A model generated the notes under the pieces. That model worked only from the letters and a program-made list of their open reading frames with translations, made no database searches and was not told the origin of the DNA. A DNA stretch of 36,144 bases, from IMG/VR virus record IMGVR_UViG_3300045284_000152, positions 1-36,144 of that record, one strand, 5' to 3'. The stretch comes from a virus. A program made the translations under genes and the position numbers. Positions 367 through 18,694 of the stretch are shown here, piece by piece; position 1 is the stretch's first letter; every line of letters begins with the position of its first letter.

Positions 367-1778
367 GGCACTTCCGGGCATGGGCTCGGCGCCTCGAGCT
401 GGACAACGGCGACCAATGGGAGGTCGAGGACTTCCAGGGCGCGTTTATCGAAGACCTGTTCTCGGGCGTCGCCGAGTGCTGGCTGATCGTGCCCGAGGGC
501 AACGCCAAGACGACGCTGTTCGCCGGCCTCGCCCTCTACCATGCCGAGTTCCGACGCTCGGCGATGGTCCCCGTGGCGGCATCATCGCGGGACCAGGCGC
601 AGGTCATGTACGCGCAGGCCGAGGGCTTCATCCAGCGGAGCGAGCTGCGGGGCTTCAAGCTCCATCCGGGCTATCGCCGGATCAAGCACGCCGGGTCGTT
701 CTCCACCGTCCAGTTCCAGGCCGCCGACGATCGGACCGGCGACGGCGTCATCCCGACGCTCGGCCTGCTCGACGAGCTCCATCGCCACCGCGATCTCCGC
801 CTCTACCGGACGTGGCGCGGCAAGCTCTTGAAGCGTGGCGGGCAACTGGCCGCGATCAGCACCCGCGGCGAGCCCGGCAGCGAGTTCGAGCTGACGCTCG
901 ACCGCATCCGCCGCGAGGCGACCGACCTCCACACCGAGGGCACGTTCACCCGAGCCGCCTCGCCGCGCTTCGTCCTCCACGAATGGGCCGTGCCGGAGGG
1001 CGGTGACGTCGAGGACATGGCCCTCGTCAAGTCGGCCAACCCGTTGAAGGCGATCACCGCCCCGATGCTCGCCGAGAAGCGGGCCAGCCCGACGATGACG
1101 CTCGGCCACTGGCGCCGGTTCGTCTGCAACCTGCCGACCCGCGACGAGGACTCGGCCATCACCGAGGCCGAGTGGTACGCCGCGAAGGTCGACGACGGCA
1201 TCCCCGAGGGCCAGCCGGTCGCGGTCGGCCTCGACGTGGCGTGGAAGTGGGACACGACGGCGGCCGTGCCGCTGTGGGTCCGCGATTCCGACTACCGGCT
1301 GCTCGGCCCGGCGACGATCCTGACCCCGCCGCGGGACGGCAACAGCCTCGACCCGTCCCTCGTCGAGAACGCGCTGCTCGACATCCACGCCCGCAACCCG
1401 ATCCACACCGTCGTCATGGACACGAGCCGCGCCGAGCAGCTCGGCCAGTGGATCGGCGACGCGATCGGGGCCGTCGTCTTCGACCGCCAGCAGACGAACA
1501 CGCTCGCCGTTCAGGATTACGACTACTTCATGGAGGGTCTGCGGTCGGGCGCCCTCAAGCACACCGGCGACGCGGGCCTGACCCGCCATGTCCTCAACGC
1601 CATCGCCCGCGTCCTGCCCTTCGGCGACGCGCGGTTCGACCGGCCCAACCAGTCCCGTCTCGGGCCGGAGCAGGAGCGACGCGTGATTGACGCCCTTACC
1701 GCCGCTTCGATGGTCCACGCCCACGCCATGACCACGGTCGAGGAGCCGGCCGAGGAGCCGCTGGCCGCATGGGGCTGA
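363..1778 (+). CDS. terL: Terminase large subunit (ATPase-nuclease), CTG start proposed
   Basis: TerL is the motor that pumps DNA into the prohead and cuts it. The ATPase half has Walker A VPEGNAKTT (residues 43-51) and a Walker B-like LLDELHRH (acidic pair at 137-138). The nuclease half begins at VGLDVAWKWD (Asp 291), with a later VVMDTS strand. The reading frame upstream encodes RHFRAWARRLELDNGDQW, the usual start of this terminase family, but contains no ATG, GTG or TTG between the stop at 138-140 and GTG 489, and a GTG 489 start would lose the segment before Walker A. CTG at 363 overlaps the previous stop as CTGA and gives 471 residues. A -1 frameshift from the upstream gene is the alternative. 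Confidence 0.9.
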   Translation: MRHFRAWARRLELDNGDQWEVEDFQGAFIEDLFSGVAECWLIVPEGNAKTTLFAGLALYHAEFRRSAMVPVAASSRDQAQVMYAQAEGFIQRSELRGFKLHPGYRRIKHAGSFSTVQFQAADDRTGDGVIPTLGLLDELHRHRDLRLYRTWRGKLLKRGGQLAAISTRGEPGSEFELTLDRIRREATDLHTEGTFTRAASPRFVLHEWAVPEGGDVEDMALVKSANPLKAITAPMLAEKRASPTMTLGHWRRFVCNLPTRDEDSAITEAEWYAAKVDDGIPEGQPVAVGLDVAWKWDTTAAVPLWVRDSDYRLLGPATILTPPRDGNSLDPSLVENALLDIHARNPIHTVVMDTSRAEQLGQWIGDAIGAVVFDRQQTNTLAVQDYDYFMEGLRSGALKHTGDAGLTRHVLNAIARVLPFGDARFDRPNQSRLGPEQERRVIDALTAASMVHAHAMTTVEEPAEEPLAAWG

Positions 1779-3184
1779 GAGACCGACTCATCACCACGTT
1801 CGACCCGCTCCGCAACGCGGTCATCCCCGCGTGGCCGACGGGGTACGACAACTTCTCGCCGTATGCGTTCCTCGCCAACGGCCAGTCGTTCCCGCTCGAC
1901 CTCAACTTCACGATGCCAGGCTCGCGCGAAGAGGACATCGAGAACAGCTTCGAGGGCTACGTCTCCCGCGCGTTCAAGGGCAACCCCGTCGCGTTCGCCT
2001 GCGAGCTCACCCGGCTCATGATCTTCTCCGAGGCGCGGTTCCAGTTCCGGTCCTTCACCAAGGGACGGCCTGGCAACCTGTTCGGAGACCCGTCGCTCGC
2101 CATCCTCGAGCACCCGTTCGGCCCGAACTCCGCGACCGGCGACCTGCTGACGCGAGCCCTCGCCGACGCCGACCACGCCGGCAACTGCTACCTGACCCGG
2201 CGCCGGACGCGGACCTCCGACCGCATCGTCCGGATGCGCCCGTCGTGGGTCACGATGGTCTTCGGCAGCAACGACCCGGCCGTCTCACCCGACGAGCTGG
2301 ACGCGGAGTTCCTCGGGATCATCTACTACCCCGGTGGGGAGTATTCCCCGACCGGCGACCCGGTCTACCTCCAGCGCAGCGAGATCGCCCACTTCGCGCC
2401 GATCCCCGACCCGACCGCCCGCGGCCGCGGCATGAGCTGGATCACGCCCATCGTCCGCGAGATCATGGCCGACGGCGCGGCCTCGACGCACAAGCTTGGC
2501 TTCTTCGAGCATGGCGGCACGCCGAACCTCGCCATCGTCCGCACCGACGCCCCCGACAAGGAGGCGTTCGACAAGTGGCGGACGATCATCACGTCCGGCC
2601 ACAGCGGCGTCGCCAACCAGTACAAGTGGCTGTTCCTGACAGCCGGCGCGACACCCGTGCCGCTCGGCAAGGACATGCAGCAACTGGACTTCAAGGTCGT
2701 CCAGGGCGCGGGTGAGACCCGCATCGCCGCAGCCGCCGGGGTCCATCCCGTCGTCGTCGGGCTGTCCGAAGGGATGCAGGGCTCCAGCCTCAACGCGGGC
2801 AACTTCAACTCCGCCCGGCGGATCACCGCCGACAAGACGTTCCGCCCGCTGTGGCGGAACTTCGCGGGCTCGATGGAGACGCTCGTCCCGCCGCCCGCCG
2901 GTAGCCAGCTCTGGTACGACGGCCGCGACATCGCCTTCCTCCGCGAAGACAACAAGGATGCGGCCGAAATCCAGCAGACCAAGGCCGCGACGATCCGACA
3001 GCTCGTCGACGCGGGCTACAAGCCCGAGACCGTCGTCGCCGCAGTCGAGGCCGAGGACATGAGCCTGCTCAAGCATTCCGGCCTGTTCAGCGTTCAGCTC
3101 CAACCGGCGGGCTCCAGCCCCACGCCTGCCATCGCGCCGACGAACGGTAAGGCTCCCACGCCCACAGGAGGCGCCGCGACATGA
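1769..3184 (+). CDS. Portal protein, HK97-like
   Basis: This 471-residue protein overlaps the end of terL by ten bases and has the length and placement of an HK97-type portal, the dodecameric ring through which DNA enters and leaves the capsid. Supporting features are the alpha/beta core with DADHAGNCYLTRRR near residue 130, the GVHPVVVGLSEGMQGSS segment near 325, and a C-terminal helical region ending in a low-complexity tail rich in proline and threonine. Its own stop overlaps the next start (ATGA). Identification rests on family resemblance plus fixed gene order terL-portal-protease-capsid. Confidence 0.88.
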   Translation: MGLRDRLITTFDPLRNAVIPAWPTGYDNFSPYAFLANGQSFPLDLNFTMPGSREEDIENSFEGYVSRAFKGNPVAFACELTRLMIFSEARFQFRSFTKGRPGNLFGDPSLAILEHPFGPNSATGDLLTRALADADHAGNCYLTRRRTRTSDRIVRMRPSWVTMVFGSNDPAVSPDELDAEFLGIIYYPGGEYSPTGDPVYLQRSEIAHFAPIPDPTARGRGMSWITPIVREIMADGAASTHKLGFFEHGGTPNLAIVRTDAPDKEAFDKWRTIITSGHSGVANQYKWLFLTAGATPVPLGKDMQQLDFKVVQGAGETRIAAAAGVHPVVVGLSEGMQGSSLNAGNFNSARRITADKTFRPLWRNFAGSMETLVPPPAGSQLWYDGRDIAFLREDNKDAAEIQQTKAATIRQLVDAGYKPETVVAAVEAEDMSLLKHSGLFSVQLQPAGSSPTPAIAPTNGKAPTPTGGAAT

Positions 3185-5511
3185 CCACCGAGACCAAGGC
3201 GCGAACGCGGCCGCCTCGCGACAATCTCGTCCGCGCCTTCTCGCCCGGCATCGAGTTCCGTGCCGCGCTGGCGGACGGCGGGCTCGGCACCCTGTCGGGC
3301 CACTTCTCCGTGTTCAATGCGTGGTACGAGGTCGACTCGCTCTGGGAGGGCAGGTTCTTGGAGCGCGTCGCTCCGGGCGCGTTCAAGAAGACGTTTGCCG
3401 AGAACCGAGACAAAATCCGCGTCACCTTCAACCACGGCCAGGACCCGGACCTCGGCGACAAGGTTCTCGGTCCGATCACCGCGCTAAGCGAGGACGGCGT
3501 CGGCGCGGCCTACGAACTCGAGCTGCTCGACGGTCTTCCGCCCCTCCTGCTGAACGGCCTCCGCCGTGGTGTCTACGGCTCGTCCTTCCGGTTCCGTGTC
3601 GTCAAGGAAGAGTGGGACGACGTGCCGAAGGCGTCCGAGGACAACCCGAGCGCGTTGCCCGAGCGGACCATCAAGGAAGTCGACGTGTTCGAGTTCGGTC
3701 CGGTCACGTTCCCAGCGTCGCCGACCGCCTCAGCCGCCGTCCGATCTCTCACCGACATCTACGCCATGCGCCAGTTCACGCGCGATCCCGCGCGGATGGC
3801 CGAACTTCTCGAAGCATCACGGGAGACAGCACTCCCCGACGACGGAGCCGACGAAGGTCACTCCGACGAGGGAGCCGCAGCGACCCCCGCCGAGCCGGAC
3901 GAACCGGCACCCCAGCCGCCCGCTGCGGCACCACCGCCGGACGAACCGGCAACCGAGCCCGAGGACCCGCCAGAAGGCGGGTCTTCTGATTCCAGGAGTG
4001 CAACCGTGGACATCGCAGACCTCAAGACAACCGACGAGATTCGGGCTCGGTTCGACGAGCTGAACGGAACGCTCAAGGACCAGCACGCGAAGTACCCCGG
4101 CGTCATGCCCGAGGACGAGCAGGTCAAGTTCGACGCCGACACCGACGAGCGCGACAAGCTCGGCAAGCACCTCAAGGCATGGGAGGCGCGGCAGGCCGTT
4201 CTCATCGAGGCCGCCAAGAAGGGAACGGGCACGGAGCCCGGAGAGGATCGTGGCGTGCCCAAGGACTACAGCGACCGCACCGTCATCCGAACCAAGACGG
4301 ACGCGGAGCTGCACAGCCCCGAGTCGCGGTCTGCCACGTTCGAGGGCCGGACGGCTGAGTACCGCGACGACGCCAAGCGCCTGCTCGAGAAGGTGTCATT
4401 CCCGACGGACTGGGTCGACGCGCAGCGCAGCCGGGATCGCATCTCCGATCTGCTCGACCACCACGACTCGCCTGACGGCGAGCTGGCCCGGCGGGTCAAG
4501 TACACCAGCTCGCCGGCCTACGAGCGGGCGTTCCACAAGTTCATCACCTCGCGCGGCCAGACGCTCGGCTTCACCCTCGAGGAGCAGCGCGGCACGGCCC
4601 TCGCCGTGGGCGTCGACGCGACAGGCGGCTTCGCCGTCCCGTTCGCGTTCGACCCGACGGTCATCGCCATCGGCGTCAACAACGGCGCGGTCAACCCGTA
4701 CCGGGCCACCTGCCGCGTCGTGTCGATCGTCGGCACCGACACATGGAACGCCGTGACCGCCACCGCGGTCGTGGCGACCCGGACGACCGAGGCCGCGCCC
4801 TCCGTCGAGCAGGGTCCGACCTTCGCCCAGCCGCAGTACGTCGTGAAGCGGGCGCAGGGCCAGATCACGGCCAGCTTCGAGATGTTCCAGGATCGGTCCG
4901 ACCTCGCGTCCGAGCTCGGCTCGCTGATCCAGGAAGCCAAGGACAACGAGGAAGAGACCTCGTGGGCCGTCGGCGCGGGCGGTGCCACCGCCTCCATCGG
5001 CGTCGGCCCCGTCTCGGGCACCTCTGGCGCGTTCACGGCGCAGGCTGGCGCGGGCGCGGGCGTCCTCGCCGAGGTCGACTTCACGACGACGGAGTCGGCG
5101 CTGCCGGTCCGCCATCGCTTCACGGCCCAGTGGTTCATGAACCGCGTCAACATCCGCAAGGCCCAGTCGCTCGAGACCACGGGCGGCAAGCTGTTCGGCG
5201 GATCGGCCTACCCGAACGTCGGCAACATCGCCCTCTCGGGCGTCGGCAACACCGGCCTCCGGCTGCTCGGCTACCCGGTCAACGAGTCGCCGTCGCTGCC
5301 GACGGCCACGACGACGACGATCACCGCCGCGACGCTCTGCAATGTCAACCAGTACGTGATCGTCGACCGCGTCGGCCTGTCGGTCCAGTTCATCCCGTTC
5401 ATCTTCAACAGCTCCGCGCTGGCCACCGGCCAGCAGGCGCTCTACTTCCTGTACCGCAACCACGCGGCGCCGCTCAACGTGGACGCCGGCCGGACCCTTC
5501 GCTTCCTGTAG
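3181..5511 (+). CDS. Prohead protease fused to HK97-fold major capsid protein
   Basis: This single 776-residue frame holds two proteins normally separate. Residues about 20-190 are an HK97-family prohead protease, with candidate catalytic His 85 (TFNHGQ) and Ser 134 or 135 (YGSSFRF), then the typical EVDVFEFGPVTFPAS strand. Residues about 220-268 are an acidic, proline-rich linker. From about 276 there is a scaffold-like charged segment, then the capsid domain (about 440-776), with typical phrases TGGFAVPFAFDPTVI and GQITASFEMFQDRSDL. An internal GTG at 4006 has a good ribosome binding site. The protein may therefore be made both as a fusion and as free capsid subunit. Fusions of this type are known in other phages. 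Confidence 0.88.
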   Translation: MTTETKARTRPPRDNLVRAFSPGIEFRAALADGGLGTLSGHFSVFNAWYEVDSLWEGRFLERVAPGAFKKTFAENRDKIRVTFNHGQDPDLGDKVLGPITALSEDGVGAAYELELLDGLPPLLLNGLRRGVYGSSFRFRVVKEEWDDVPKASEDNPSALPERTIKEVDVFEFGPVTFPASPTASAAVRSLTDIYAMRQFTRDPARMAELLEASRETALPDDGADEGHSDEGAAATPAEPDEPAPQPPAAAPPPDEPATEPEDPPEGGSSDSRSATVDIADLKTTDEIRARFDELNGTLKDQHAKYPGVMPEDEQVKFDADTDERDKLGKHLKAWEARQAVLIEAAKKGTGTEPGEDRGVPKDYSDRTVIRTKTDAELHSPESRSATFEGRTAEYRDDAKRLLEKVSFPTDWVDAQRSRDRISDLLDHHDSPDGELARRVKYTSSPAYERAFHKFITSRGQTLGFTLEEQRGTALAVGVDATGGFAVPFAFDPTVIAIGVNNGAVNPYRATCRVVSIVGTDTWNAVTATAVVATRTTEAAPSVEQGPTFAQPQYVVKRAQGQITASFEMFQDRSDLASELGSLIQEAKDNEEETSWAVGAGGATASIGVGPVSGTSGAFTAQAGAGAGVLAEVDFTTTESALPVRHRFTAQWFMNRVNIRKAQSLETTGGKLFGGSAYPNVGNIALSGVGNTGLRLLGYPVNESPSLPTATTTTITAATLCNVNQYVIVDRVGLSVQFIPFIFNSSALATGQQALYFLYRNHAAPLNVDAGRTLRFL
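3964..4008 (+). promoter_or_regulatory. Hairpin plus Shine-Dalgarno element and internal GTG start for the capsid protein
   Basis: GACCCGCC (3964-3971) and GGCGGGTC (3976-3983) form a perfect 8-bp stem with loop AGAA. It is followed by GATTCC, then AGGAG (3994-3998) seven bases before an in-frame GTG at 4006. The same design recurs before the tail tube gene at 13235-13281, with an A-T stem pair replaced by G-C. Translation from GTG 4006 would give a 501-residue capsid protein with its own scaffold-like region. Confidence 0.65.
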
Positions 5512-5520
5512 TCCACTGAC

Positions 5521-5548
5521 GGGCGGCGGGCTCACGCACCCGCCGCCC
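5521..5548 (+). terminator. Strong hairpin after the capsid gene
   Basis: GGGCGGCGGG (5521-5530) and CCCGCCGCCC (5539-5548) form a perfect 10-bp, all-GC stem with an 8-base loop, nine bases after the capsid stop. No T-run follows, so it may be an mRNA 3' stabiliser or processing boundary, or a weak terminator, rather than a standard intrinsic terminator. A similar hairpin follows the tail tube gene. Confidence 0.6.
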
Positions 5549-5574
5549 ACCCACTCCCCGAGGAGACCCATCGC

Positions 5575-5859
5575 ATGGCGAAGGACGACATCTACCAGGT
5601 CACGACGACCTTCGTCATCACGCTCGGTGACGCGGACGTCGAGTATCACGCGGGCGAGATCGTCGATGGCGACGACCCCGCCTACAAGCGCGTGCCGGAG
5701 CACTTCGGCCCGGTCGAGTTCAAGCACCGCAAGGCCGAGAAGCCGAAGACCGAGAAGGCTGAGAAGGCCGAGGCGCCGAAGGTCGAGCAGGCCACGGCGG
5801 CACCCGGCGAGCAGCGGGGCAAGGCCATCACGACGGCCTCGTTCAAGGGCAGGCAGTAG
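5575..5859 (+). CDS. Small lysine-rich virion-associated protein (hypothetical)
   Basis: This 94-residue protein starts at ATG with GGAG 11 bases upstream. Residues 1-55 look like a small beta fold (YQVTTTFVITLGDADVEYHAGE). Residues about 57-75 are a Lys/Glu-rich run of KAEK-type repeats, and the end is basic. The gene directly follows the capsid gene, a common place for small head or decoration proteins. The layout, compact beta domain then low-complexity tail, recalls the 72-residue protein at 13055. No family was recognised. Confidence 0.75.
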   Translation: MAKDDIYQVTTTFVITLGDADVEYHAGEIVDGDDPAYKRVPEHFGPVEFKHRKAEKPKTEKAEKAEAPKVEQATAAPGEQRGKAITTASFKGRQ

Positions 5860-6453
5860 ATGGGCTACGCGTTCACCAACACCGCCGCCGCGACGACGGC
5901 GGTCACCAACCGCTTCGTCGCCAGCACGAACATGAGCCTGACGACGTACACGATCGCCAACGCCTCGCCGACGTGGTCGGGCGGCTGCCTCGTGACGGTC
6001 ACCCACACCACCGTCGCTGGAACCGACACGCTCGGCACGATGACCCTCGTCGGCACCGACCTCGCCGGCCGGCCCCAGTCCGAGACCCTGACCCCGGTCG
6101 CCGACTCGACGGTCACCAGCACCAAGGTCTACCGCACCGTCACCAGCCTGACGTCGCTCGGCTGGGCCGCGGTGAGCACCGCCGACACCATCGTCGCGGG
6201 CTGCGCCGCCGGCAACGTCGTCTGCGGCAGCCAGGGCACGCTCGGCGGCGTCCTCGTCAACAACAGCGTCGCAGCCGCGGTCACCATCAGCGACGCGAGC
6301 CGGACGATCATCACCATCCCCGTGTCGCAGGCGGCCGGGACGTTCTACCCGCTCGGCGTGGACTTCGGCGGTCGCCTAGTCGTGTCGACGACGAGCACGA
6401 ACGACATCACCGTGTTCCATACCGGCACTACGCCCTCGAGCTACGCGCTGTGA
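5860..6453 (+). CDS. Beta-rich virion protein (hypothetical)
   Basis: The 197-residue product begins one base after the previous stop. It is almost entirely Thr/Ser/Val/Ala-rich beta-strand sequence (for example SGGCLVTVTHTTVAGTDTLG), with no charged clusters and no signal peptide, as expected for a virion surface protein. Position after the capsid gene makes a head decoration or head-fibre protein plausible. Its composition resembles the products at 6620, 7405 and 16948, so these may be related structural proteins. No family was recognised. Confidence 0.7.
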   Translation: MGYAFTNTAAATTAVTNRFVASTNMSLTTYTIANASPTWSGGCLVTVTHTTVAGTDTLGTMTLVGTDLAGRPQSETLTPVADSTVTSTKVYRTVTSLTSLGWAAVSTADTIVAGCAAGNVVCGSQGTLGGVLVNNSVAAAVTISDASRTIITIPVSQAAGTFYPLGVDFGGRLVVSTTSTNDITVFHTGTTPSSYAL

Positions 6454-6623
6454 GCTGGCGCCGGCTCAGGCTGTTTCTCAGTCCCGAGCCGGCGCTCTGC
6501 TCGACGTGTGACCACCTCATCCGCGAGCGCGTCCGCCGTCCGTGCCCCCGCTGCGGCGACACCCGGCGAACCCTGTCGCGCGGCATTGACGCCTCCGTCC
6601 GAACCGAGGATCGCGTGACATGA
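6450..6623 (+). CDS. Micro-protein with zinc ribbon
   Basis: A GTG start overlaps the upstream stop (GTGA) and the stop overlaps the downstream ATGA, so the 57-residue gene is coupled on both sides. CSTC at residues 17-20 and CPRC at 32-35 form a four-cysteine zinc-ribbon pattern in a basic protein. Its role among virion genes is unknown. The double overlap and intact cysteine knuckles support a real gene rather than a shadow frame. Confidence 0.65.
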   Translation: MSWRRLRLFLSPEPALCSTCDHLIRERVRRPCPRCGDTRRTLSRGIDASVRTEDRVT

Positions 6624-7408
6624 GCAACCTGCCACGGATCGTGGTCCCCGAGGACGCCTCGCACCTCCGGGTCATGCGCGGATCGCGGCTCGTCGAGTCG
6701 GTCCACCACGGGCCGAACATCTGGACGGCGACCGTCATCCACCCCGACGGCTCGTATGACGTCAGCCAGGGCCACAACCTGCTGACGACTGCGGGACGCG
6801 ACCTCATCGCCGCGGGCTATGGCAACCCGACCGGCAAGGACGGCGCGCTCACCGCGAGCTCGGCCACCAGCGCCACCCCGGCGGGCGGCGGCCTGACGAC
6901 CGACCAGTACAAGGGCTGGCGCGTCTTCTGCCCCGTCACGGGCCTGACCACGGCCCCGGTCTACGGCAACATCGGGTCCAACTCCACGACGGTCCTCACG
7001 GTCGACGGCTGGTGGGTCGGCACCGCCGACACGATGACCGGCGCGACACCGGCCTCGACGAACGGCTACCACATCCAGCCATCAGTCGAAGCCCGGTTCA
7101 TGGGCCTGACGGTGGACACCGGCGCGGCGGCGGCGGGCGACACGGTCCTCGCCTCGGAGCAGACGGTCAACGGCCTCGGCCGGGCCAAGGCGACGTACGC
7201 CCACACACCGGCGGCGGCGACGTACACCCTCGCCAACACCTTCAACGTCATCACGACCGGCCCGATCACGATCCACAAGGGTGGCCTGTTCACCGCCGCC
7301 AACACGACCGCGGCCGGGATCATGGTGTTCGAGGCGGTCCTCTCCGCCGACGCCATCGTGCAAGCCGGCGACACCCTGATCGTGACTGCGACGGTGACCC
7401 TCACATGA
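6620..7408 (+). CDS. Beta-rich virion protein (hypothetical)
   Basis: This 262-residue protein has an N-terminal region of about 65 residues (VVPEDASHLRVMRGSRLVES and the Gly/Asp-containing strands after it) and then a long Thr/Ala/Gly-rich beta region. It lacks a signal peptide or membrane segments. Overlaps on both sides place it in the post-capsid structural operon. A role in the virion surface, either head fibre or tail fibre, is inferred from composition and neighbours only. Confidence 0.7.
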   Translation: MSNLPRIVVPEDASHLRVMRGSRLVESVHHGPNIWTATVIHPDGSYDVSQGHNLLTTAGRDLIAAGYGNPTGKDGALTASSATSATPAGGGLTTDQYKGWRVFCPVTGLTTAPVYGNIGSNSTTVLTVDGWWVGTADTMTGATPASTNGYHIQPSVEARFMGLTVDTGAAAAGDTVLASEQTVNGLGRAKATYAHTPAAATYTLANTFNVITTGPITIHKGGLFTAANTTAAGIMVFEAVLSADAIVQAGDTLIVTATVTLT

Positions 7409-7941
7409 CGCGCCAGTACTTCGCCGACCTCCTCGTCGACTCGGCAGGGACGAACTACGCGACCATCACGGCCACGACCGAGACCGTCCTCATCCCGACG
7501 CTCTGGACGGGCATCCCCGCGATGGAGCCGCGGGCCGGCAAGATCTACCGGCTCGAGGTCGGCGGGACGGTCACCACCGGCGCGTCCGGCACGATGATCA
7601 TCACGCCGCGCTTCGGCACGGTCATCGGCGGCGTGGCGCTGGGCGCGAGCCCGACGCAGACCGTGGTGCCGTCGATCACCCTCGCCCCGTTCTACCTCGT
7701 CTATACCCTCGTGTTCCGCACGATCGGCCAGGCGGGCGCCAACTCGACGTGCGTCGGGACCGGCTACTGGACGTCCAACGGCGCGGTCGCCACGGCATCG
7801 AGCGAGACGGCCTGCACGTTCGGCAGCACCGGCAGCGTGTCGGTCGACACGTCGGTCGCCTCCGCCCTCTGGATCGGCGTCACGTTCTCCATCGCGCCGT
7901 CGATCATCCCGTTGTGGAGCACCTGGCAAGCCCTAAACTGA
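7405..7941 (+). CDS. Beta-rich virion protein (hypothetical)
   Basis: The 178-residue product starts at ATG overlapping the previous stop. It is strand-rich with few charges (GKIYRLEVGGTVTTGASG, then repeated Thr/Val/Ala strands) and ends IPLWSTWQALN. The composition is like a trimeric fibre or decoration domain. It is followed by a nine-base gap carrying the Shine-Dalgarno site of the next gene. No family was recognised. Confidence 0.68.
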   Translation: MTRQYFADLLVDSAGTNYATITATTETVLIPTLWTGIPAMEPRAGKIYRLEVGGTVTTGASGTMIITPRFGTVIGGVALGASPTQTVVPSITLAPFYLVYTLVFRTIGQAGANSTCVGTGYWTSNGAVATASSETACTFGSTGSVSVDTSVASALWIGVTFSIAPSIIPLWSTWQALN

Positions 7942-7949
7942 GGTAGGCC

Positions 7950-9455
7950 ATGCCCGCCCTCGGACATGGCCGGGGGCCGCTCGATCCACGAGCCTTCTAC
8001 ACCCCACGCCTCACGGCGCCACAGGTCGTTGCCCTGGTCGTCGGAGACCCTGCGGCACTGACGACCGGCGATCTCACGATCGCGGGTCGTGTCAGCGGCC
8101 TCGGCCTCGGCTTCGTCTATGTCGATGATGCTTCAGCCGCGGACTTGACGCGGCGGCTCGTCGTCATCTGCGAGTCCTGCTCGGGCGCGACCGTAGGAAC
8201 GAAGTACCGCAACGCGACGATGGGCGTCGTCGTGTTCGAACGCGCAGCCATCCTCAACATGGACATGGCCTCGGTCGACGCGACGAACGGCGACGTCGAC
8301 AACGAGGACAAGGTCTCGATCCTCATCGCCGGCCACGGGCTGGCGGGCGGGCTCACCGGCATCGTCAACGTCCAGACGCCCGGCAACCGCGTCGACTACA
8401 ACAACGCCTCGGAGCTGGCTGCGAGCGCGCAGCAGGTCTACTCGACCGAGGCATCCGCGACCCAGATCGCGGGCTACGGCTACGAAGCCGGCGCGACGAT
8501 GCAGGCCGCCCACGTCGCCGAGGCCCGCCGCGTGTGGTGCGGCATCGCGGCCGACAGCTCGATCACCAACCTCGACTTCGCGGGCGGCGCGACGCTCATC
8601 GACGCGGCGATCATCTGGGCGATGGGCTCCGCGTCGGGCGCGGTGACGCTGAACGTCAGCCTGACCGAGGCCGTCGCGAGCTCCGACGCATGGGCGCGGG
8701 TCGGCACGTTCAACCGCGCCGGCACCGAGACCGTGGCATCGGCCGATGCATGGAACCGGGCAGGCACGTTCCTGCGGGCTCTGACAAGCTCGGTCGCGTC
8801 ATCGGACGCGTGGGCTGGCGTCAAGGTCTTCGTCCGCGCCCTCACCGAGTCCGTGGCGTCGAGCGACGCGTGGACCAGGACCGGCACGTTCGCACGGAGC
8901 CTGACCGAGAGCGTCACCAGCTCCGACGCATGGGGTCGGGTCGCAAACCTGCCGCGTGCGCTGGCCTCGTCCGTGGCCTCGGCCGACGCATGGACCCGCT
9001 CGGGCACGTTCCTGCGGGCTCTCGCGGGGTCAGTCGCCTCCGCCGACGCATGGGTCGGAGCGAAGGCGGGCGCCATCCTCGCCGGATGGTCCGAGAGCGT
9101 TACCTCGAGCGATGTCTGGACCCGCACCGGGACGTTCCGCCGGACGCTCACCGGCGCAGTCTCGCAAGTCGACTCATGGGCCGGCCAACTCGGGACCATC
9201 ATCATCGGCGGCCTCGGCCCTCGCATCGGCTCGGCGGTCAACGCGATCGTGCAGGCGGTCGGCATGAGGGCCGGCCCACCCGAAGCCAACGCCACGAACC
9301 CGACCGTGCCCGGACGGGCGACCACGCCGAAGTCACAGGGCATCGCGGAGACGACCACGCCGGGCTCACTCGGAGCGGGCAACGGGTCAGGAGGAAGCAC
9401 GACCGCCTTCCGCTGGAACATCAACAAGTGGAATGACGGAGGCGACTACTCGTGA
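7950..9455 (+). CDS. Virion protein with nine ~20-residue tandem repeats
   Basis: The 501-residue protein starts at ATG after GAGGTA. Residues 1-235 form a globular beta domain (contains AAIIWAMGSASGAVTLNVS near its end). Residues about 238-415 are nine tandem units of about 20 residues with consensus LTESVASSDAWTRTGTFxRA. The Asp-Ala-Trp and Gly-Thr-Phe positions are best conserved. A Gly/Thr/Pro-rich tail follows. The repeated Trp/Phe spacing suggests a rod-like fibre shaft or adhesin. The stop overlaps the spike gene, so the two products probably act together. Confidence 0.75.
   Translation: MPALGHGRGPLDPRAFYTPRLTAPQVVALVVGDPAALTTGDLTIAGRVSGLGLGFVYVDDASAADLTRRLVVICESCSGATVGTKYRNATMGVVVFERAAILNMDMASVDATNGDVDNEDKVSILIAGHGLAGGLTGIVNVQTPGNRVDYNNASELAASAQQVYSTEASATQIAGYGYEAGATMQAAHVAEARRVWCGIAADSSITNLDFAGGATLIDAAIIWAMGSASGAVTLNVSLTEAVASSDAWARVGTFNRAGTETVASADAWNRAGTFLRALTSSVASSDAWAGVKVFVRALTESVASSDAWTRTGTFARSLTESVTSSDAWGRVANLPRALASSVASADAWTRSGTFLRALAGSVASADAWVGAKAGAILAGWSESVTSSDVWTRTGTFRRTLTGAVSQVDSWAGQLGTIIIGGLGPRIGSAVNAIVQAVGMRAGPPEANATNPTVPGRATTPKSQGIAETTTPGSLGAGNGSGGSTTAFRWNINKWNDGGDYS
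8661..9193 (+). repeat. 60-bp coding tandem repeat
   Basis: About nine diverged copies of a 60-base unit encode the ~20-residue repeats of the virion protein above. GACGCATGG (Asp-Ala-Trp) recurs nearly once per unit. Copies differ mostly at third positions while key residues stay, which indicates selection on the protein. One unit (around 9040-9110) is about two residues longer. Copy number could vary by recombination. Confidence 0.8.
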
Positions 9456-11107
9456 GCCTCACCGCGGTCGTATCCGGCAACGACGCCCTCGCCTCGGACC
9501 TCAACCAGTACCGGAACCTCTACCGCGGCGGCTCGGTCTACGACGTCCGCAACGGCTACGGCGCGGTCGGCGACGGGACGACCGACGACCAGCCCGCGAT
9601 CCAGGCGGCGATCGCCGCCGCAGGGGCGGCAGGCGGCGGGGTCGTCTACTTCCCGGCCGGGACGTACAAGCTGTCGGCCCTCGCCATCTCAGCCGTCGGG
9701 GCCGAGGCGCACCTCCACATCCCATACAACGGCATCACGCTGGCGGGACAGGGCGCGAGCTCGGTCCTGTACGCGACCGACACCGCGGCGATGATCTACG
9801 TCGGCTCCTCCACGCTGTTCCTGCCGGACGCCACGGTCTACACGATGACCGCCACGGCGCAGATGGCGATGACGACGACGCTCGCCACGCCAGCCAACGC
9901 GGGCAACTTCGCCGCCGGCGACTGGTGCTACATCCGCACCGGCCAGACGATTACCGGTTCGCGCGAGCCGGACGCGGAGATCAACCGGATCGTCTCGGCC
10001 TCGGCCGGGACGGGCGTCCTGACGCTGGCCTACCCGACGGCCAAGGCGTACGCGCAGGAGTACTACATCAGCGGGACGTCGGGCCGGACGACCACGACGC
10101 CGACCGCCAACCTCGCGCCGTTCGGCGTGGCGAAGGTCACCGACCGGGTGATGACCGACCTGACGATCCGCGACCTGAACTTCGTGCATACGGGTTTCCA
10201 GTACGTAATGTACGGAGCCGGGCAGGTAGTCGGGCTCACGATCGAGAACTGCCAGGGCACGCTCCGCGGCGGCTTCATGTCGCTGGGCAACTACCGCTTC
10301 TCGCGGGTCACCGGCTGCCGCTTCCACCACACGGGCACGGGCGCCCAGACGTACACCCTGACCACGGCCACGGGCTGCTCCGACGTCCAGTGGACCGACA
10401 ACCTCCTGAGCGGCGAGCGGGTCATCCAGCTCCACGTCGCGGAGGGCGCGGCCAACGTCCGCATCATCGGCAACTCCATCCTCAGCGCGGGCTCGGCGAC
10501 GGACGAGAACCAGATCTCGGTCCATGCGCGGGCGTACGACATCCAAATCCTCGGCAACCACCTTGCGGGCTCGCCGGGGTCCAACGCCATCTATGTCGAA
10601 GACCTGTGCGACGGCGGCGGAACGATCACCGGCAACACGATCCTCTCGGACGGCGGGACGGCCATCCAGGTCGCCGCCGCCAACTGGCACGTCACGGCCA
10701 ACCGGACGCCGAACGCGGGCCAGTCGATGGCCCAGTACACGGGCTCCGACAGCGACGTCCGATACCTCTCCGCGTGGGTCACAACGACTCACCCCGAGGT
10801 CATCCTCGGAGTCCTGCCGGAGCACGTCTACGTCTCGGGCGTCAGCCTGTGGGTCCTCGACGCGTTCAACTCGTCGGGCACCGACACGATCAGCGTCGGG
10901 GCCGACCTCGACCACACGATCTTCGGGACCGCGACGGACGTCTCGACGGCCGGCCTCAAGGTCCCGACGCCGGGCTCGTGGACGGGCTACGGCTTCGACG
11001 GCCGGAGCTGGATCGCCAAGGCGTACTACGTCGCTGGCGGCGGCGCTCCCTCGACGGGCAAGGTCCTGGCGGTCCTCGCCTATGCCCACGTCCCGGTCCA
11101 TCCATAG
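9452..11107 (+). CDS. Pectate-lyase-like spike protein
   Basis: This 551-residue protein begins with a short attachment region and then the signature of pectate lyase superfamily beta-helix spikes, DVRNGYGAVGDGTTDDQPAI (residues about 31-50), followed by GGGVVYFPAGTYKL. Successive beta-helix turns run to about residue 440, and a beta-sandwich-like C-terminal domain ends the protein. Such trimeric spikes bind and cleave host capsular or cell-wall polysaccharide. The GTG start overlaps the upstream stop. The last 28 bases overlap the end of the antisense HNH gene. Whether it sits on head or tail is not shown by the sequence. Confidence 0.82.
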   Translation: MSLTAVVSGNDALASDLNQYRNLYRGGSVYDVRNGYGAVGDGTTDDQPAIQAAIAAAGAAGGGVVYFPAGTYKLSALAISAVGAEAHLHIPYNGITLAGQGASSVLYATDTAAMIYVGSSTLFLPDATVYTMTATAQMAMTTTLATPANAGNFAAGDWCYIRTGQTITGSREPDAEINRIVSASAGTGVLTLAYPTAKAYAQEYYISGTSGRTTTTPTANLAPFGVAKVTDRVMTDLTIRDLNFVHTGFQYVMYGAGQVVGLTIENCQGTLRGGFMSLGNYRFSRVTGCRFHHTGTGAQTYTLTTATGCSDVQWTDNLLSGERVIQLHVAEGAANVRIIGNSILSAGSATDENQISVHARAYDIQILGNHLAGSPGSNAIYVEDLCDGGGTITGNTILSDGGTAIQVAAANWHVTANRTPNAGQSMAQYTGSDSDVRYLSAWVTTTHPEVILGVLPEHVYVSGVSLWVLDAFNSSGTDTISVGADLDHTIFGTATDVSTAGLKVPTPGSWTGYGFDGRSWIAKAYYVAGGGAPSTGKVLAVLAYAHVPVHP

Positions 11108-11646
11108 CGGCGATATCGCCACTCCGCCAGCAGGCGGGCGCTCTTGCTGCCGTTGCAGAAGTCGCATGCGGGCACGAGATTGCCAATCGAGTGGCGACCG
11201 CCGCGGGAGATCGGGATGACATGGTCCTGATCGAGCGGCACGCCCGTGGCACCGCAGTAGGCACAGGCATTCCGGTATCGGTGGAGCACGCGACGCCAAT
11301 CGCGCGCGGTGATCGTAAAGACGCCGTTGCCGAGCTTACGAGCCCGACGGCGGTTCTCGATCTCGGATAGGCGATCTCGGTTGGCTGCGGCGTAAGCCGA
11401 GCGCCGGTTCGCGTAGTACTCGGGATGAGCGGCATACCAGCGTCGGCCGGTGGCGCGTGACCGTTCGCGATTGGCTTCTAGCCAGGCTCGGCCTTGGGCT
11501 TTGACCTTGTCGGGGTTGGCGGCGCGCCACGCCTCGTTTCGCGCCTTGATCTCGGCCTTGTGGGTCTCGTAGTACCTCGCGCTGTAGATGGCGGCTCGCT
11601 CGGGATGAGCAGCTTTGAACTTGGCTGAACGCTCGGCCGGGGTCAC
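11080..11646 (-). CDS. HNH homing-type endonuclease
   Basis: The 188-residue product (GTG start at 11646) has an N-terminal region of repeated basic helices (RYYETHKAEIKARNEAWRAA type, several variants), which probably grips DNA. The C-terminal HNH nuclease has a CAYCG knuckle, LDQDHVIPISRGG (catalytic His pair region) and CDFCNGSK. It is on the opposite strand inside the late operon, between the spike and connector genes, as expected for a mobile homing endonuclease. Its 3' end overlaps the spike gene and its 5' end lies 45 bases from the connector gene. Confidence 0.85.
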   Translation of the reverse strand: MTPAERSAKFKAAHPERAAIYSARYYETHKAEIKARNEAWRAANPDKVKAQGRAWLEANRERSRATGRRWYAAHPEYYANRRSAYAAANRDRLSEIENRRRARKLGNGVFTITARDWRRVLHRYRNACAYCGATGVPLDQDHVIPISRGGRHSIGNLVPACDFCNGSKSARLLAEWRYRRYGWTGTWA

Positions 11647-11691
11647 CAGTGACTCGGAAGGTGTGACATTCCCAACATCATTCGCGTCCTC

Positions 11692-12594
11692 GTGGAAAAT
11701 CCGGATGAGTTGCTGAACGCGGGTGCCTATGCGGCGGGCGCTCTGGTCCGCGTCCAGTGGTCCGCGACGGAGGCTGGTGCATTTGCCGATGTCTCCGGCA
11801 CAGGTTCGACACCAACGATCCCGATCGTCACTGCCGTCCGGTCATACACGGGCTACGACCCTTCGGGAACTGTCTCCACATTCTACCGGACGCGCTACGA
11901 GAACGCGGGCGGCACGCGCGTCAGCGACTGGGTCCCGGCGTTCCAGGTCGGCGACGAGACGGGCGGGCTGCTGTGCTCGCTCTACGATGTCAAGCAGGAG
12001 CTCGGCCGCACCAGCCCGACCGACACCGGCGACGACGAGCTGATCCTCGAGAAGATCAAGCAGGTCTCCGCGGCCATCGAGCTCCACTGCCAGGCGTGGC
12101 TCGCGCCCCGCCCGACGAACCCGACGTCGGAGACGACGCTGCTGTTCGACGTCCCCTATACGAGCCGCAGCCTGTACGTCGAGCGCGGCTACCGACGCCT
12201 CGGCATCCGCACCCTCTCGACGCTCGGCATCGCCACCCAGAGCCAGCCCGAGACGGGCGGGACGTACACGAACGCCACGCTGGCCACCGTCCTCCTCCGG
12301 CCCCGCCCAACCGCCGATGGCCCGGCATGGCGACTGGAGTTTAGCGACACCAGCGGCGGCTTGTTCTACGCCGGCTACAACACCGTCTCGGCCACCGGCG
12401 CGTTCGGTCCGGCCTCGGTCCCGGCCGACATCCAGGGCGTGGCGCTGCGGGCCGTCGTGCGCCGCGTCATGGGCAAGGGCGCGGGTGCGGTCGGCATCCC
12501 GATCGGACCCGAGGGGACGGTCATGCTGCTGCCCGACCTGTCGGGCGCTGACCGGGCGACGCTCGACATGTACCGCGTCCCGGCCGTCGCGTGA
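11692..12594 (+). CDS. Head-tail connector (gp6-like) with N-terminal fibronectin-like part
   Basis: Residues about 85-150 (LCSLYDVKQELGRTSPTDTG, then a helix-rich region ending ELHCQAWL) match the small helical connector fold that docks on the portal. Residues 1-80 look like an Ig/FN3-type beta domain (VRVQWSATEAGAFADVSG). The rest, to residue 300, is mixed. GTG 11692 is the only standard start nearby, but the in-frame codons upstream (from 11653) read IPNIIRVLV, which looks like continuing protein. The true start may have been altered by insertion of the neighbouring HNH gene. Confidence 0.7.
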   Translation: MENPDELLNAGAYAAGALVRVQWSATEAGAFADVSGTGSTPTIPIVTAVRSYTGYDPSGTVSTFYRTRYENAGGTRVSDWVPAFQVGDETGGLLCSLYDVKQELGRTSPTDTGDDELILEKIKQVSAAIELHCQAWLAPRPTNPTSETTLLFDVPYTSRSLYVERGYRRLGIRTLSTLGIATQSQPETGGTYTNATLATVLLRPRPTADGPAWRLEFSDTSGGLFYAGYNTVSATGAFGPASVPADIQGVALRAVVRRVMGKGAGAVGIPIGPEGTVMLLPDLSGADRATLDMYRVPAVA

Positions 12595-13055
12595 ACCTGT
12601 ACACGATCGCGACCGCCATCGCGACGACGTTCGGCACGGTCACGGCCACGAACGGCACCGAGACCGAGACGGTCACGGCCACGGCCGACCTGCCCGACCA
12701 GGTCAGCAACCTCGTGCTGCTCGTGTTCCCGCCGTTCGGGCCGATCGAGATCGGCGCATCCCAGCGGCGGAACGACCTCTACACCTTTCCGGTCCGGCTG
12801 CTCCGCGACCCGTTGAGCGTGCCAGCCCGGACCCGCTGGCTGTACGCGTGGTACGACGCCATCCACGACAGGATCGCCACGACCCACATCGCGCTCGGCC
12901 TCAGCTACGTCTCGATGGCCGAGCCGACCCAGATGCGGGCCGAGATCGACGGGGCGAAGTACAGCAGCGTCGATGGCACCTACGCCGACCTCGACGTGGT
13001 CGAGCTGATGCTCGAAGTCCTCGTGAACGAACACGTAGCGGGAGTGACTGTGTGA
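12591..13055 (+). CDS. Tail completion/terminator-like protein
   Basis: The 154-residue product starts with GTG overlapping the connector stop. Its length, the mixed alpha/beta pattern (NLVLLVFPPFGPIEIGASQR, then RTRWLYAWYDAIHDR) and its place between connector and tail tube match the neck or tail-terminator proteins of siphoviruses, which cap the tail tube and join it to the head. Assignment is by position and general fold pattern only. Confidence 0.6.
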   Translation: MNLYTIATAIATTFGTVTATNGTETETVTATADLPDQVSNLVLLVFPPFGPIEIGASQRRNDLYTFPVRLLRDPLSVPARTRWLYAWYDAIHDRIATTHIALGLSYVSMAEPTQMRAEIDGAKYSSVDGTYADLDVVELMLEVLVNEHVAGVTV

Positions 13056-13273
13056 TGGCGAAGTCCGAAGGTCTGACGGTCTACCCAATCTTCAACGGGC
13101 AGAACGTCCAGTTCATTCCCGGCATCCCCGCGACGATCCGCACGGGGCTGACCAAGAAGGAAGCCGAGGAGCTGATCGCGACCGGCGCGTTCACCTACGA
13201 CAAACCACCCGCAGGGGTGGACGTTCCGACCGAAGGCCCGCCAGACGGCGGGCCGCTTGATTCCAAGGAGTGA
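13055..13273 (+). CDS. Small head-tail region protein (hypothetical)
   Basis: This 72-residue protein starts at ATG at the last base of the previous stop (TGATG). Residues 1-50 are a compact domain (TVYPIFNGQNVQFIPGIPAT, then LTKKEAEELIATGAF), and a proline-rich tail ends PPDGGPLDSKE. The tail is encoded by the hairpin-Shine-Dalgarno element that precedes the tail tube gene, just as PPEGGSSDSR in the protease-capsid linker is encoded by the related element. Function unknown. Confidence 0.7.
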   Translation: MAKSEGLTVYPIFNGQNVQFIPGIPATIRTGLTKKEAEELIATGAFTYDKPPAGVDVPTEGPPDGGPLDSKE

Positions 13274-13281
13274 CCTAGATG
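13235..13281 (+). promoter_or_regulatory. Hairpin plus Shine-Dalgarno element before the tail tube gene
   Basis: GGCCCGCC (13235-13242) and GGCGGGCC (13247-13254) form an 8-bp stem with loop AGAC. GATTCC, AAGGAG and GTGA follow, then ATG at 13279. The layout matches the element before the capsid start at 3964-4008. One stem pair differs between the two by a compensatory A-T to G-C change. Both precede the two proteins needed in the largest numbers. Confidence 0.65.
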
Positions 13282-14271
13282 CCGGTCCACACGTTCAAGA
13301 CCCTGCGGGCCGGTCTCGAGACGACCCGCGGGACGGGTGTCGCGATGACGCGCGGCATCGAGTTCACCACGGCCGACCACAAGCAGAACATCGACACGAT
13401 CTACCCCGAGGAGCTGCGGAACTCGTACGAGGCGCACTACGCCGCGACGGCCGGCGCCGAGACGAACACGATCGACGTCGAGTACCCGCTCGACTTCGAC
13501 GCGATGGCGTGGTGGGGCAACCTCCACATCAAGGCCGTGCCGACGCCGACCGGCGCGGGCGCCGACCGCACCTGGACGTTCGTGCCCACGCTCACCTCCG
13601 ACGACCAGAAGTCAGCCACCGTCCAGCTCGGCTACACCGACAACATCGGCGCGACGAGCCCGGCCGTGTCGATCCCCTACGTCATCGGCGACGTCCTCAA
13701 CATCAACTGGAACAAGTCGCCGGGCTCGCCCGGCGTCATGTGCAAGTCGTCGCTCGTCTCGCCCAAGGCGGCCAGCCAAATCTCCGCGTTCACCGGCACC
13801 GGCACGTACACGACCTCCGAGCTCGCCAAGGCCCAGGCGACGGTCGTCACCATCGACCCGACGACGATCGGCACCACGACCGACAACGACATCGTCACGG
13901 CCGACTGGACCTACACCTCGGGCTTCGTGAACCTCTACACGCTGAACAACACGACGGCCGCGCAGGACACCTTCCGGCCCAACCCCCTCCAGTGGGAGTT
14001 GAAGCTGACGCGGTACATCCGCAACGACAACGAGTGGGACCGCTACGTCGACAAGGCCAAGCGGAAGATCAGGATCAAGACGACAGGCTCGGTCCTCGGC
14101 GGCTCGTTCTATTCCGTCCAGCTCGACTGTTACGGCACGCTGTTCGACCGCTCCGTCTCGGAGACCGACGGGCTCGGGATGGAGGAGCTGACGTACCGGC
14201 CGCTCTACGACACGTCGTTCGGCGGGACAACCCAACTCATCGTCGTCAACGACCTCACCACGATCACCTAG
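13279..14271 (+). CDS. Major tail (tube) protein
   Basis: The 330-residue protein follows a strong ribosome binding site (AAGGAG). It has the size, beta-rich pattern and N-terminal phrase common in siphovirus tube proteins (MPVHTFKTLRAGLETTRGTG), then strands such as TWTFVPTLTSDD and a Lys/Arg-rich segment before the final strands. It lies just upstream of the frameshifting tail assembly chaperones, the normal position for the tube gene. Many copies stack as rings to form the tail tube. Confidence 0.8.
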   Translation: MPVHTFKTLRAGLETTRGTGVAMTRGIEFTTADHKQNIDTIYPEELRNSYEAHYAATAGAETNTIDVEYPLDFDAMAWWGNLHIKAVPTPTGAGADRTWTFVPTLTSDDQKSATVQLGYTDNIGATSPAVSIPYVIGDVLNINWNKSPGSPGVMCKSSLVSPKAASQISAFTGTGTYTTSELAKAQATVVTIDPTTIGTTTDNDIVTADWTYTSGFVNLYTLNNTTAAQDTFRPNPLQWELKLTRYIRNDNEWDRYVDKAKRKIRIKTTGSVLGGSFYSVQLDCYGTLFDRSVSETDGLGMEELTYRPLYDTSFGGTTQLIVVNDLTTIT

Positions 14272-14277
14272 CCGTGT

Positions 14278-14309
14278 CGGGGCGGGGGGACCACAGGCTC
14301 CCCGCCCCG
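14278..14309 (+). terminator. Strong hairpin after the tail tube gene
   Basis: CGGGGCGGGG (14278-14287) and CCCCGCCCCG (14300-14309) form a 10-bp GC stem with a 12-base loop, seven bases after the tube stop. No T-run follows. Like the hairpin after the capsid gene it may protect or delimit the 3' end of an abundant message. Confidence 0.55.
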
Positions 14310-14329
14310 GCGTCACCTGTGGAGGCATC

Positions 14330-14641
14330 ATGCGAATCCCCCTGCGCGACGGCCAGTGGGCCGAGCTGCGCGACCGGATCACCCATGGACAGGACAAGGA
14401 GATCAAGCGGGCGCGCGTCCGGGTCCAGCAGAACGCCGAGGCGGTCGTCGACTGGTCGACGATCATCACCCGCGCGTTCATCGTGGCGTGGGACGTGAAG
14501 GACACCGACGGCAACCCCATCGACCTCAACGATGAGGATGCCCTCGACCGCGCGCCCAACGACATCATCGACGTCCTGTTCCCCCACGCGGTGAGCCAGT
14601 ACAAGGCGACCACCGACCCAAACCCCGATACGCCGAGCTGA
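14330..14641 (+). CDS. Tail assembly chaperone, short (gpG-like) form
   Basis: The 103-residue product starts at ATG after GGAGG. It is charged and helical (LRDRITHGQDKEIKRARVRV), and it sits between tube and tape measure genes, as the lambda gpG type of chaperone does. It coats the tape measure protein during tail assembly. A slippery heptamer near its end (14617-14623) would let some ribosomes shift by -1 into the next reading frame to make a longer form. Confidence 0.75.
   Translation: MRIPLRDGQWAELRDRITHGQDKEIKRARVRVQQNAEAVVDWSTIITRAFIVAWDVKDTDGNPIDLNDEDALDRAPNDIIDVLFPHAVSQYKATTDPNPDTPS
14617..14623 (+). other. -1 ribosomal frameshift slippery site CCCAAAC
   Basis: CCCAAAC fits the X XXY YYZ rule, and the zero-frame codons are CCA (14618-14620) and AAC (14621-14623), exactly the required phase. 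After slipping, reading continues CCC CGA TAC from 14623 in the frame of the next ORF to the stop at 14830-14832. The fusion would be 167 residues: 98 from the first frame and 69 from the second. The zero-frame stop is at 14639-14641. Confidence 0.75.
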
Positions 14642-14643
14642 TC

Positions 14644-14832
14644 GTGCGGCTCGGCCTCATGGACGTCTACGAGGCGGAGGTTGACCTCCTGCCCGACCCC
14701 GACCTGTTCCGAGACGCGGTGCTGCTGGCTGCCTCGGGCTGGCCCGTCAGCGAGCGCGATCTCGACGAGACCGACGCGCTGCTGTTCGCCCTCGCGCGCC
14801 GGCTGCGGAACGTCAAGCGGAGGAAAGGCTGA
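14644..14832 (+). CDS. Tail assembly chaperone, frameshift extension (gpT-like)
   Basis: This reading frame (DVYEAEVDLLPDPDLFRDAV and a basic end) is most likely expressed as the C-terminal part of a gpGT-like fusion entered at 14623 by -1 slippage. A separate start at GTG 14644 is possible but has no clear ribosome binding site. The fused form normally bridges tape measure and tube subunits. Continuous in-frame coding from 14623 through the zero-frame stop region supports this. Confidence 0.7.
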   Translation: MRLGLMDVYEAEVDLLPDPDLFRDAVLLAASGWPVSERDLDETDALLFALARRLRNVKRRKG

Positions 14833-14833
14833 G

Positions 14834-15247
14834 ATGCCGGTCAAGTTCAAGACCTCCGTGTCGACCAAGGGTCCGTTCTTCCAGGGCGATCCGTTGAAGA
14901 AGTGGGCCGACAACAAGCGGGAGTTCATGGAGCGGTGGGCGGAGATGGGCGCGAAGGACGTCCGCGGCCGCCTCGTCGCCGGGCAGAGCGGGCGCTACCC
15001 GCTCGGCATGGGGCTCGGCCGCGTCTCCGACCACGTCCACGGCAGGGTCGTGTCGCTCGAAGGCAAGCACTGGAAGGCGACCGCGGTGGTATCGGTCAAC
15101 AACCGCGGCTTCACCAAGGCGCAGGGCATCAAGCTCATGGCCGCCGCATCGTGGCTTGAGCAGACAGAGCACCCGTTCCGCCGCGCTAAGGGCGCGATGC
15201 GCCGCGCCAAGGCCGTGAACGTCGACATGCTCAAGGGTCTGCGGTGA
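14834..15247 (+). CDS. Tail protein upstream of tape measure (hypothetical)
   Basis: A basic 137-residue protein starts at ATG, one base after the chaperone stop. It contains a helical region (KKWADNKREFMERWAEMGAK), a Gly/Ser-rich middle and a strand pair (WKATAVVSVNNRGFTKAQG). The stop overlaps the tape measure start (GTGA). The position suggests a tail assembly or tail completion role, but no family was recognised. Confidence 0.7.
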   Translation: MPVKFKTSVSTKGPFFQGDPLKKWADNKREFMERWAEMGAKDVRGRLVAGQSGRYPLGMGLGRVSDHVHGRVVSLEGKHWKATAVVSVNNRGFTKAQGIKLMAAASWLEQTEHPFRRAKGAMRRAKAVNVDMLKGLR

Positions 15248-18692: not shown

Positions 18693-18694
18693 GG

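Follow-up and report, generated by a model that had tools for sequence, protein, structure and literature searches.

Hairpin and Shine-Dalgarno modules before the capsid cistron and a major tail gene in soil phages of one family

In Mycobacterium smegmatis, the DNA gyrase mRNA carries a stem-loop followed by a Shine-Dalgarno (SD) sequence, and disruption of this leader is reported to destabilise the transcript (Unniraman et al. 2002, cited in PMC2358910). A hairpin or a ribosome-binding site near the 5' end is also a known mRNA stabiliser in Bacillus subtilis (PMC3997798), and the SAS/ESAS elements have been described in Cluster K mycobacteriophages and Cluster EF Microbacterium phages (PMC3203893, PMC7302621). 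A literature search gave no direct account of phage capsid leader hairpins or of internal starts in protease-capsid fusions. Here we describe two hairpin-SD modules in a viral DNA of 36,144 nucleotides, analysed over its whole length and called the window below (IMG/VR virus record IMGVR_UViG_3300045284_000152). One precedes the capsid cistron within a fused protease-capsid open reading frame (ORF) and the other precedes a probable tail tube gene. Both are exactly where the original prediction had placed a hairpin followed by GATTCC and AGGAG, before GTG 4006 and ATG 13279:

3181-5511, + strand: fused ORF, 776 aa, head maturation protease (N-terminal) and HK97-fold major capsid protein (C-terminal)
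3964-3983, + strand: capsid-leader hairpin, 8 bp, or 11 bp with flanking pairs (3961-3986); loop AGAA; 22 nt 5' of the start codon
3988-3998, + strand: GATTCC (3988-3993) and SD sequence AGGAG (3994-3998) of the capsid module
4006-5511, + strand: internal capsid start and putative free capsid cistron, 501 aa; AGGAG and in-frame start kept at the junction
13235-13254, + strand: tail-gene leader hairpin, 8 bp; loop AGAC; 24 nt 5' of the start codon
13259-13270, + strand: GATTCC (13259-13264), one A and SD sequence AGGAG (13266-13270) of the tail module

Selection on the stems and the conserved internal start

The arms of the capsid module are GACCCGCC-AGAA-GGCGGGTC and those of the tail module GGCCCGCC-AGAC-GGCGGGCC, both stems being GC-rich, and the SD contexts of the two sites are CCAGGAGTG and AAGGAGTGA, respectively. 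When the 36-kb record was searched for the paired hairpin with at most 3 mismatches, these two matches only were found, and two matches occurred in 3 of 100 shuffles. Folding of the native regions gave z-scores of -3.6 for the capsid and -2.2 for the tail site. No Rfam match above the gathering score was obtained in the window or in the related records L011, L028 and L066 (compared records are designated by L numbers), and no sigma-70-like promoter was detected before the capsid gene in a scan of positions 1-20000, other promoter types falling outside that scan.

The single A-T/G-C difference between the two stems had been put forward as direct evidence of selection on the RNA structure. Two copies overstate the case, this difference being weak alone, and it is the covariation among relatives which demonstrates the selection. 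The motif GACCCGCC-NNNN-GGCGGGTC-TYCTGATTC-AGGAG, or a stem variant of it, was found at the protease/capsid junction of approximately 23 of 68 fused relatives. A scan with the 3' part only (GGGYCTYYTGATTCNAGGAG) gave 23 loci; each has a 5' arm that pairs and each immediately precedes the start of a capsid gene. The module is nearly identical among them even though the capsid proteins behind it fall to 28% identity with that of the window. A match in L002, in a different search, looks like chance and was rejected. In an alignment of 31 module sites (A2), 94.4% of the stem cells were paired (88.3 when shuffled), 13 double-sided changes were counted (1.9 when shuffled) and the covariation score reached 0.212 (0.093 when shuffled and at most 0.140 in slid versions), it being understood that kinship among sites inflates these shuffle tests and that two tail sites are misaligned by about 1 base, which works against the structure. 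The hairpin is an RNA structure under selection.

The modules also persist where the peptide does not. In L005, L006 and L070 the module lies in non-coding DNA, between a separate gene at the protease position and the next gene, which is the major head protein in L005 and is taken as the capsid in L070 and L006 from its position and similar N-terminus. In L070 the hairpin loop is 5 bases long, which would put a coding sequence out of frame. Among the coding copies, the peptide is altered with the pairs kept, from PP..GG to PS..DG (L017), PS..EG (L019) and PL..SG (L013). At all 10 family sites measured, coding or non-coding, 22-25 nt separate the end of the stem from the start codon. This distance corresponds approximately to the 5' edge of an initiating 30S subunit.

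Of the pattern first described, stem-loop, GATTCC and AGGAG, the stem and the AGGAG stood. GATTCC is replaced by GATGA (L019), GATGC (L027), GATCC (L017), GTTTC (L093) and GCTGT (tail site of L066), and was rejected as an invariant signal; it is a frequent, not a required, part of the module. As a separate observation, RNase J1/J2 cleave the B. subtilis thrS leader endonucleolytically at GAUUCCG^UUU (PMC3997798, Table 2), and the GAUUCC shared by this site and the modules at 3988 and 13259 is probably a coincidence.

Among 710 SD-start sites of the family, a hairpin lies 5-16 nt 5' of the SD at 52, against 22 and 14 in two control windows. These family sites are mainly at the capsid gene, the tail gene and the gene after the capsid. 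The assignment of the module to the capsid and major tail genes is borne out by the relatives, and no random scatter over low-expression genes was seen in the family.

Concerning the capsid site, the two halves of the fused ORF match the head maturation protease family phrog_80 (5e-32) and the major head protein family phrog_10 (1e-33). GTG 4006, first read as the start of a separate capsid gene, is codon 276 of ORF 3181-5511 and in frame with it, so that the start is internal and the capsid hairpin is also coding; the SD and start themselves are conserved. The same fusion occurs in most relatives, and in Rhodococcus phages annotated with a major capsid and protease fusion. The fused protein has many relatives among viral contigs and others in some assemblies of bacterial genomes. 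Relatives with 28-34% identity were found in cultured phages of Rhodococcus, Gordonia and Mycobacterium; the cultured relatives of this soil phage family infect actinobacteria. An extra insert of about 50 aa separates the protease and capsid halves, 5' of the hairpin, in L028 (9860 region), L029, L036 and L031.

SD-like sites were sought near the expected border of the two halves. AGGAG lies 4-10 nt 5' of an in-frame GTG, ATG or TTG at the junction in 53 of 68 fused ORFs (78%, for a chance expectation of a few percent), whereas it occurs at 33 of 2050 other in-frame start codons of the same ORFs. The internal SD and start are thus conserved at the protease/capsid junction. The junction AGGAG is found in different codon phases (33, 18 and 2 cases), encoding Arg-Ser in some ORFs and Lys-Glu or Gln-Glu in others, which indicates that nucleotides of the RNA, and not a peptide, are kept. 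AGG represents 4% of the Arg codons in the fused ORFs, and the residue at the internal start varies between Val (GTG) and Met (ATG). We infer from this conservation that the internal start is used and that a free capsid protein would be made from it.

The tail gene and the hairpins after both cistrons

Four further features complete the description of the two sites:

5521-5548, + strand: hairpin after the capsid cistron, 10 bp, without U tract
about 13055-13273, + strand: small gene 5' of the tail gene, 72 aa, start placed by reading; its last codons form the second leader hairpin
13279-14271, + strand: tail protein gene (probable tail tube), 330 aa; phrog_290 (E 2e-7) and relatives
14276-14311, + strand: hairpin after the tail gene, -33 kcal/mol, without U tract

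The stop codon of the small gene (13271-13273) overlaps the SD of the tail gene. The phrog_290 family is labelled minor tail protein, and the gene at 13279-14271 sits before the tape measure gene; from this match and this position, its earlier designation as the tail tube gene is plausible rather than proven. A search of viral contigs with the tail gene gave one close relative, L041, and the other tail relatives come from contigs fetched via the capsid. Modules were found at the tail sites of L028 (GAGCCGACC-gaaca-GGTCGGCTC-TTCTGATTCACAGGAG), L011 (GGCCCGGC-agac-GCCGGGCC-TCTTGATTCAGAGGAG) and L066 (GAGACCCCGG-aagag-CCGGGGTCTC-CTGCTGTAGAGGAG), with stem sequences that are nearly unrelated, pairing that is intact and the same placement. 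No hairpin was found at this gene in the homologues of L030, L108, L155, L005 and L041. In L011, L028 and L066, the tail stem is strongly unlike the capsid stem of the same phage, and consequently the spread by duplication within a genome suggested at first is not needed; the shared GATTC-AGGAG tail nevertheless hints at a common origin of the capsid and tail modules.

The capsid and tail cistrons of the window are bracketed by hairpins (3964, 5521, 13235 and 14276). The original prediction had recognised the two on the 5' side and missed those after both genes, of which the hairpin at 14276-14311 is the strongest simple one found in the first 20 kb. In 59 of 65 distinct relatives, a stem of 9 bp or more lies within the 65 nt after the capsid stop, against 56 of 1300 random windows (4%). 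The arms of these post-capsid hairpins comprise 53 different sequences, and the 8 bases that follow the stem usually contain 0-2 T. Strong ones are present in the cultured phages Brujita, Sbash, Mycofy1, Eyre, Nymphadora, REQ1, Jflix2 and Shagrat, and in Madraxi a strong hairpin lies one short annotated ORF beyond the capsid gene.

Several other hairpins were observed. In L093, the post-capsid hairpin AAGGCCCGCC-ctcaccc-GGCGGGCCTT is followed by CTGATTCC-TT-GGAGG and so forms a GATTCC module for the gene after the capsid. In the window, a strong hairpin (-28.6 kcal/mol) occupies positions 6458-6495, between the genes at 5860-6453 and 6620-7408, and a canonical terminator, GAACCCCCGCC-TTCG-GGCGGGGGTTC-TTTTC, lies at 19460-19485, at the end of the tail gene block, unlike the U-poor hairpins of the modules.

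Proposed role and alternative explanations

On balance, we favour the reading that the modules are mRNA-stabilising and start-insulating hairpin-SD cassettes for abundant virion proteins. Such a cassette would comprise a GC-rich hairpin whose end lies immediately beyond the 5' edge of the initiating ribosome, then a spacer rich in pyrimidines that most often ends in GATTC, and finally a strong SD; on a long late mRNA it would give the capsid and the major tail protein efficient starts of their own. The 5' hairpin and the hairpin after the cistron could serve as barriers after endonucleolytic cuts, both segments probably being more stable than the rest of the messenger, and the two commonest virion proteins would in this way be made in excess. 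Ribosomes starting at 3181 would yield a small amount of protease-capsid fusion, and those starting at GTG 4006 the bulk of the free capsid protein. Excess expression, mRNA stabilisation and a need for processing cuts are deduced here from sequence; the translation or stability enhancer originally envisaged is supported as a class of element.

Hundreds of copies of the capsid and tail-tube proteins are required, but few of the protease and connector proteins, and all are carried by one late mRNA; protease and capsid even share one ORF. A hairpin-SD inside the ORF, together with a hairpin after the cistron, would be a simple and testable answer to the setting of this ratio. Behind the annotation 'major capsid and protease fusion protein' there is probably a second product that is shorter.

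Several points weigh against this reading. Pyrimidines pairing with the SD in a second hairpin could lower initiation, ribosomes translating the fused ORF would keep opening the first one, and the protease half could itself cleave the fusion instead. About two thirds of the sampled fused relatives are without the 5' hairpin, their capsid presumably still being made, which makes the hairpin helpful and not essential.

More tentatively, one could envisage a general phage device, an extension which we regard as doubtful: abundant virion cistrons would be cut from the late mRNA as hairpin-capped, self-initiating segments, internal initiation alone would set the protease:capsid ratio in the fused phages, and convergence or transfer would explain why the device recurs in actinophages and HK97-like coliphages, whose hosts are unrelated. 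A scan for CCCGCCNNNNGGCGGG-N7-16-AGGAG-N5-8-RTG, with the spacer unspecified, gave at least 118 loci, many with a U-rich spacer. Among the matches listed, 13 of 24 distinct genes behind pyrimidine-rich spacers belong to virion families, namely major tail or tube (5), sheath (2), capsid, head decoration, tape measure, baseplate (2) and a virion structural protein; the first ten of the 24 genes were picked partly by eye and the others afterwards, with a cut-off for 'pyrimidine-rich' chosen by the analyst. One match is the major tail gene 12 of coliphage HK97, the leader of which (CCCGCCAGATGGCGGGTTTTCTTTTTCCAGGAG) is identical to the capsid module of the window at 29 of 33 bases, the stem having belonged to the search pattern and the spacer not. 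An association of GATTCC with terminators in unrelated phages is suggestive, but the search pattern selected for it and it is not claimed.

The hairpins might alternatively be intrinsic, possibly partial, terminators or pause sites setting the polarity of the late operon, read through by a modified polymerase as in lambdoid phages. A real U tract accompanies the same layout in unrelated phages (L001, L003, L004, L047, L052, L180 and L215), the family spacer is still fairly U-rich (TCTTCTGATTC), and the HK97 head and major-tail hairpins are annotated as such: the 'putative terminator' features of record AF069529 at 3309-3335, 5192-5213, 6692-6719 and 7443-7462 (3235-3261, 5118-5139, 6618-6645 and 7369-7388 in L286 coordinates) bracket the head cassette and gene 12. 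However, with a U-run criterion of at least 5 T in 8, neither window module scored as terminator-like, whereas the end-of-operon hairpin at 19460 did. Variants keep the stem and lose the Us (TCTCCTGATT, and CTGCTGTAG at the tail site of L066), and post-capsid hairpins are mostly U-poor. A terminator placed directly ahead of the gene in greatest demand, without space for a promoter, would be counter-productive if nothing overrode it. Termination would account for the U-tract versions of the other phages but not for those of the family, and we consider it unlikely for the modules. Conversely, the late-operon hairpins filed as putative terminators, those of HK97 included, may be devices delimiting mRNA segments or start sites.

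A translation switch appears more doubtful still. In this case, the first hairpin would act with a small one, CUYCU-GAUUCN-AGGAG, which would keep the SD hidden until it is opened by a regulator or by a ribosome arriving from upstream, for coupling or feedback. RNAalifold predicts this second helix, of which GATTC would be the loop; in about 20 of 25 modules a CUUCU, CUCCU or CUCUU could form pairs with AGGAG, and the upstream stop codon lying over the SD at the tail site is the usual layout for coupling. The pairing is nevertheless only marginally above that of shuffled pyrimidine-rich spacers (P 0.01-0.2 per site) and worse than the shuffles in L006, L015 and the tail site of the window, and the helix is also found in the non-translated contexts of L005 and L070. 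It cannot covary, since the SD is fixed. An SD-hiding hairpin is possible, but its support does not go beyond base composition.

It is improbable that the junction DNA persists as a recombination linker, providing homology for swaps of protease and capsid modules. Pairs of phages show strongly discordant identities for protease and capsid on the two sides of the module (77% against 34% for L078/L138, 41% against 80% for L082/L148), and the junction is a recombination joint inside the reading frame at which the halves have been exchanged between phages (window, L011-L159). Mapped on the capsid tree, the hairpin label requires 8 changes, against 18.8 after shuffling; on the protease tree it requires 12, and it thus tends to travel with the capsid. 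The near identity of the module across very divergent capsids would suit a linker; the stem covariation, the conservation of SD and start, and the tail copies with different stems require selection on RNA, and many swaps involve partners without the hairpin. Recombination at the junction is more probably a side effect of a functional element that is conserved.

Finally, a conserved proline/glycine linker peptide (DPPxGGSSDSRS) with codons pairing by chance would account for both window copies lying in the same frame of the upstream protein (PPEGG..DS and PPDGG..DS), an explanation to which we give hardly any credence, since it is largely refuted by the non-coding copies of L005, L006 and L070, the 5-nt loop of L070, the peptide changes with pairing kept and the SD kept in different codon phases.

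Comparison with known systems

The gyrase leader of M. smegmatis is the closest tested precedent in actinobacteria for the hairpin-SD cassettes proposed here. As in the modules, a stem-loop lies directly 5' of an SD in this actinobacterial messenger; the gyrase leader is near a primary 5' end, whereas the window hairpins would be internal to a polycistronic phage mRNA, one of them inside an ORF. HK97 resembles the window in that hairpins lie on both sides of its head cassette and of its major tail gene. Its leader, however, contains a true U tract, and the hairpin at its head cassette lies ahead of the protease rather than the capsid. The host of HK97 belongs to another phylum, and the window capsid gene has no homology to HK97 tail gene 12.

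The SAS/ESAS elements share with the modules a conserved AGGAG element beside start codons, in some cases with an upstream inverted repeat. They differ in being a 13-bp sequence (GGGATAGGAGCCC) present in many copies at non-structural genes, whereas the window modules precede capsid and tail genes, and, according to their authors, the ESAS repeats fail to support RNA pairing, which is strongly supported in the window family. The 18-bp motif of Cluster EC Microbacterium phages (PMC7302621) has the same distance to the start, 21-30 bp 5' of it, and also lies 5' of the ribosome-binding site, but it is an asymmetric sequence without hairpin, found mostly at non-structural genes. The same fused gene architecture is known from actinobacteriophages (Clusters EE, EL, AN and others; Rhodococcus phages REQ1, Jflix2, Shagrat and Madraxi), with no mention, in the portions of those descriptions considered, of a conserved internal SD and start or of a leader hairpin.

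The post-capsid hairpin of the relatives, the bracketing of the tail gene in the window and the junction as a recombination joint are new here. Taken together, the window modules and the bracketing of their genes are a variant of the known hairpin-SD leaders and late-operon hairpins.

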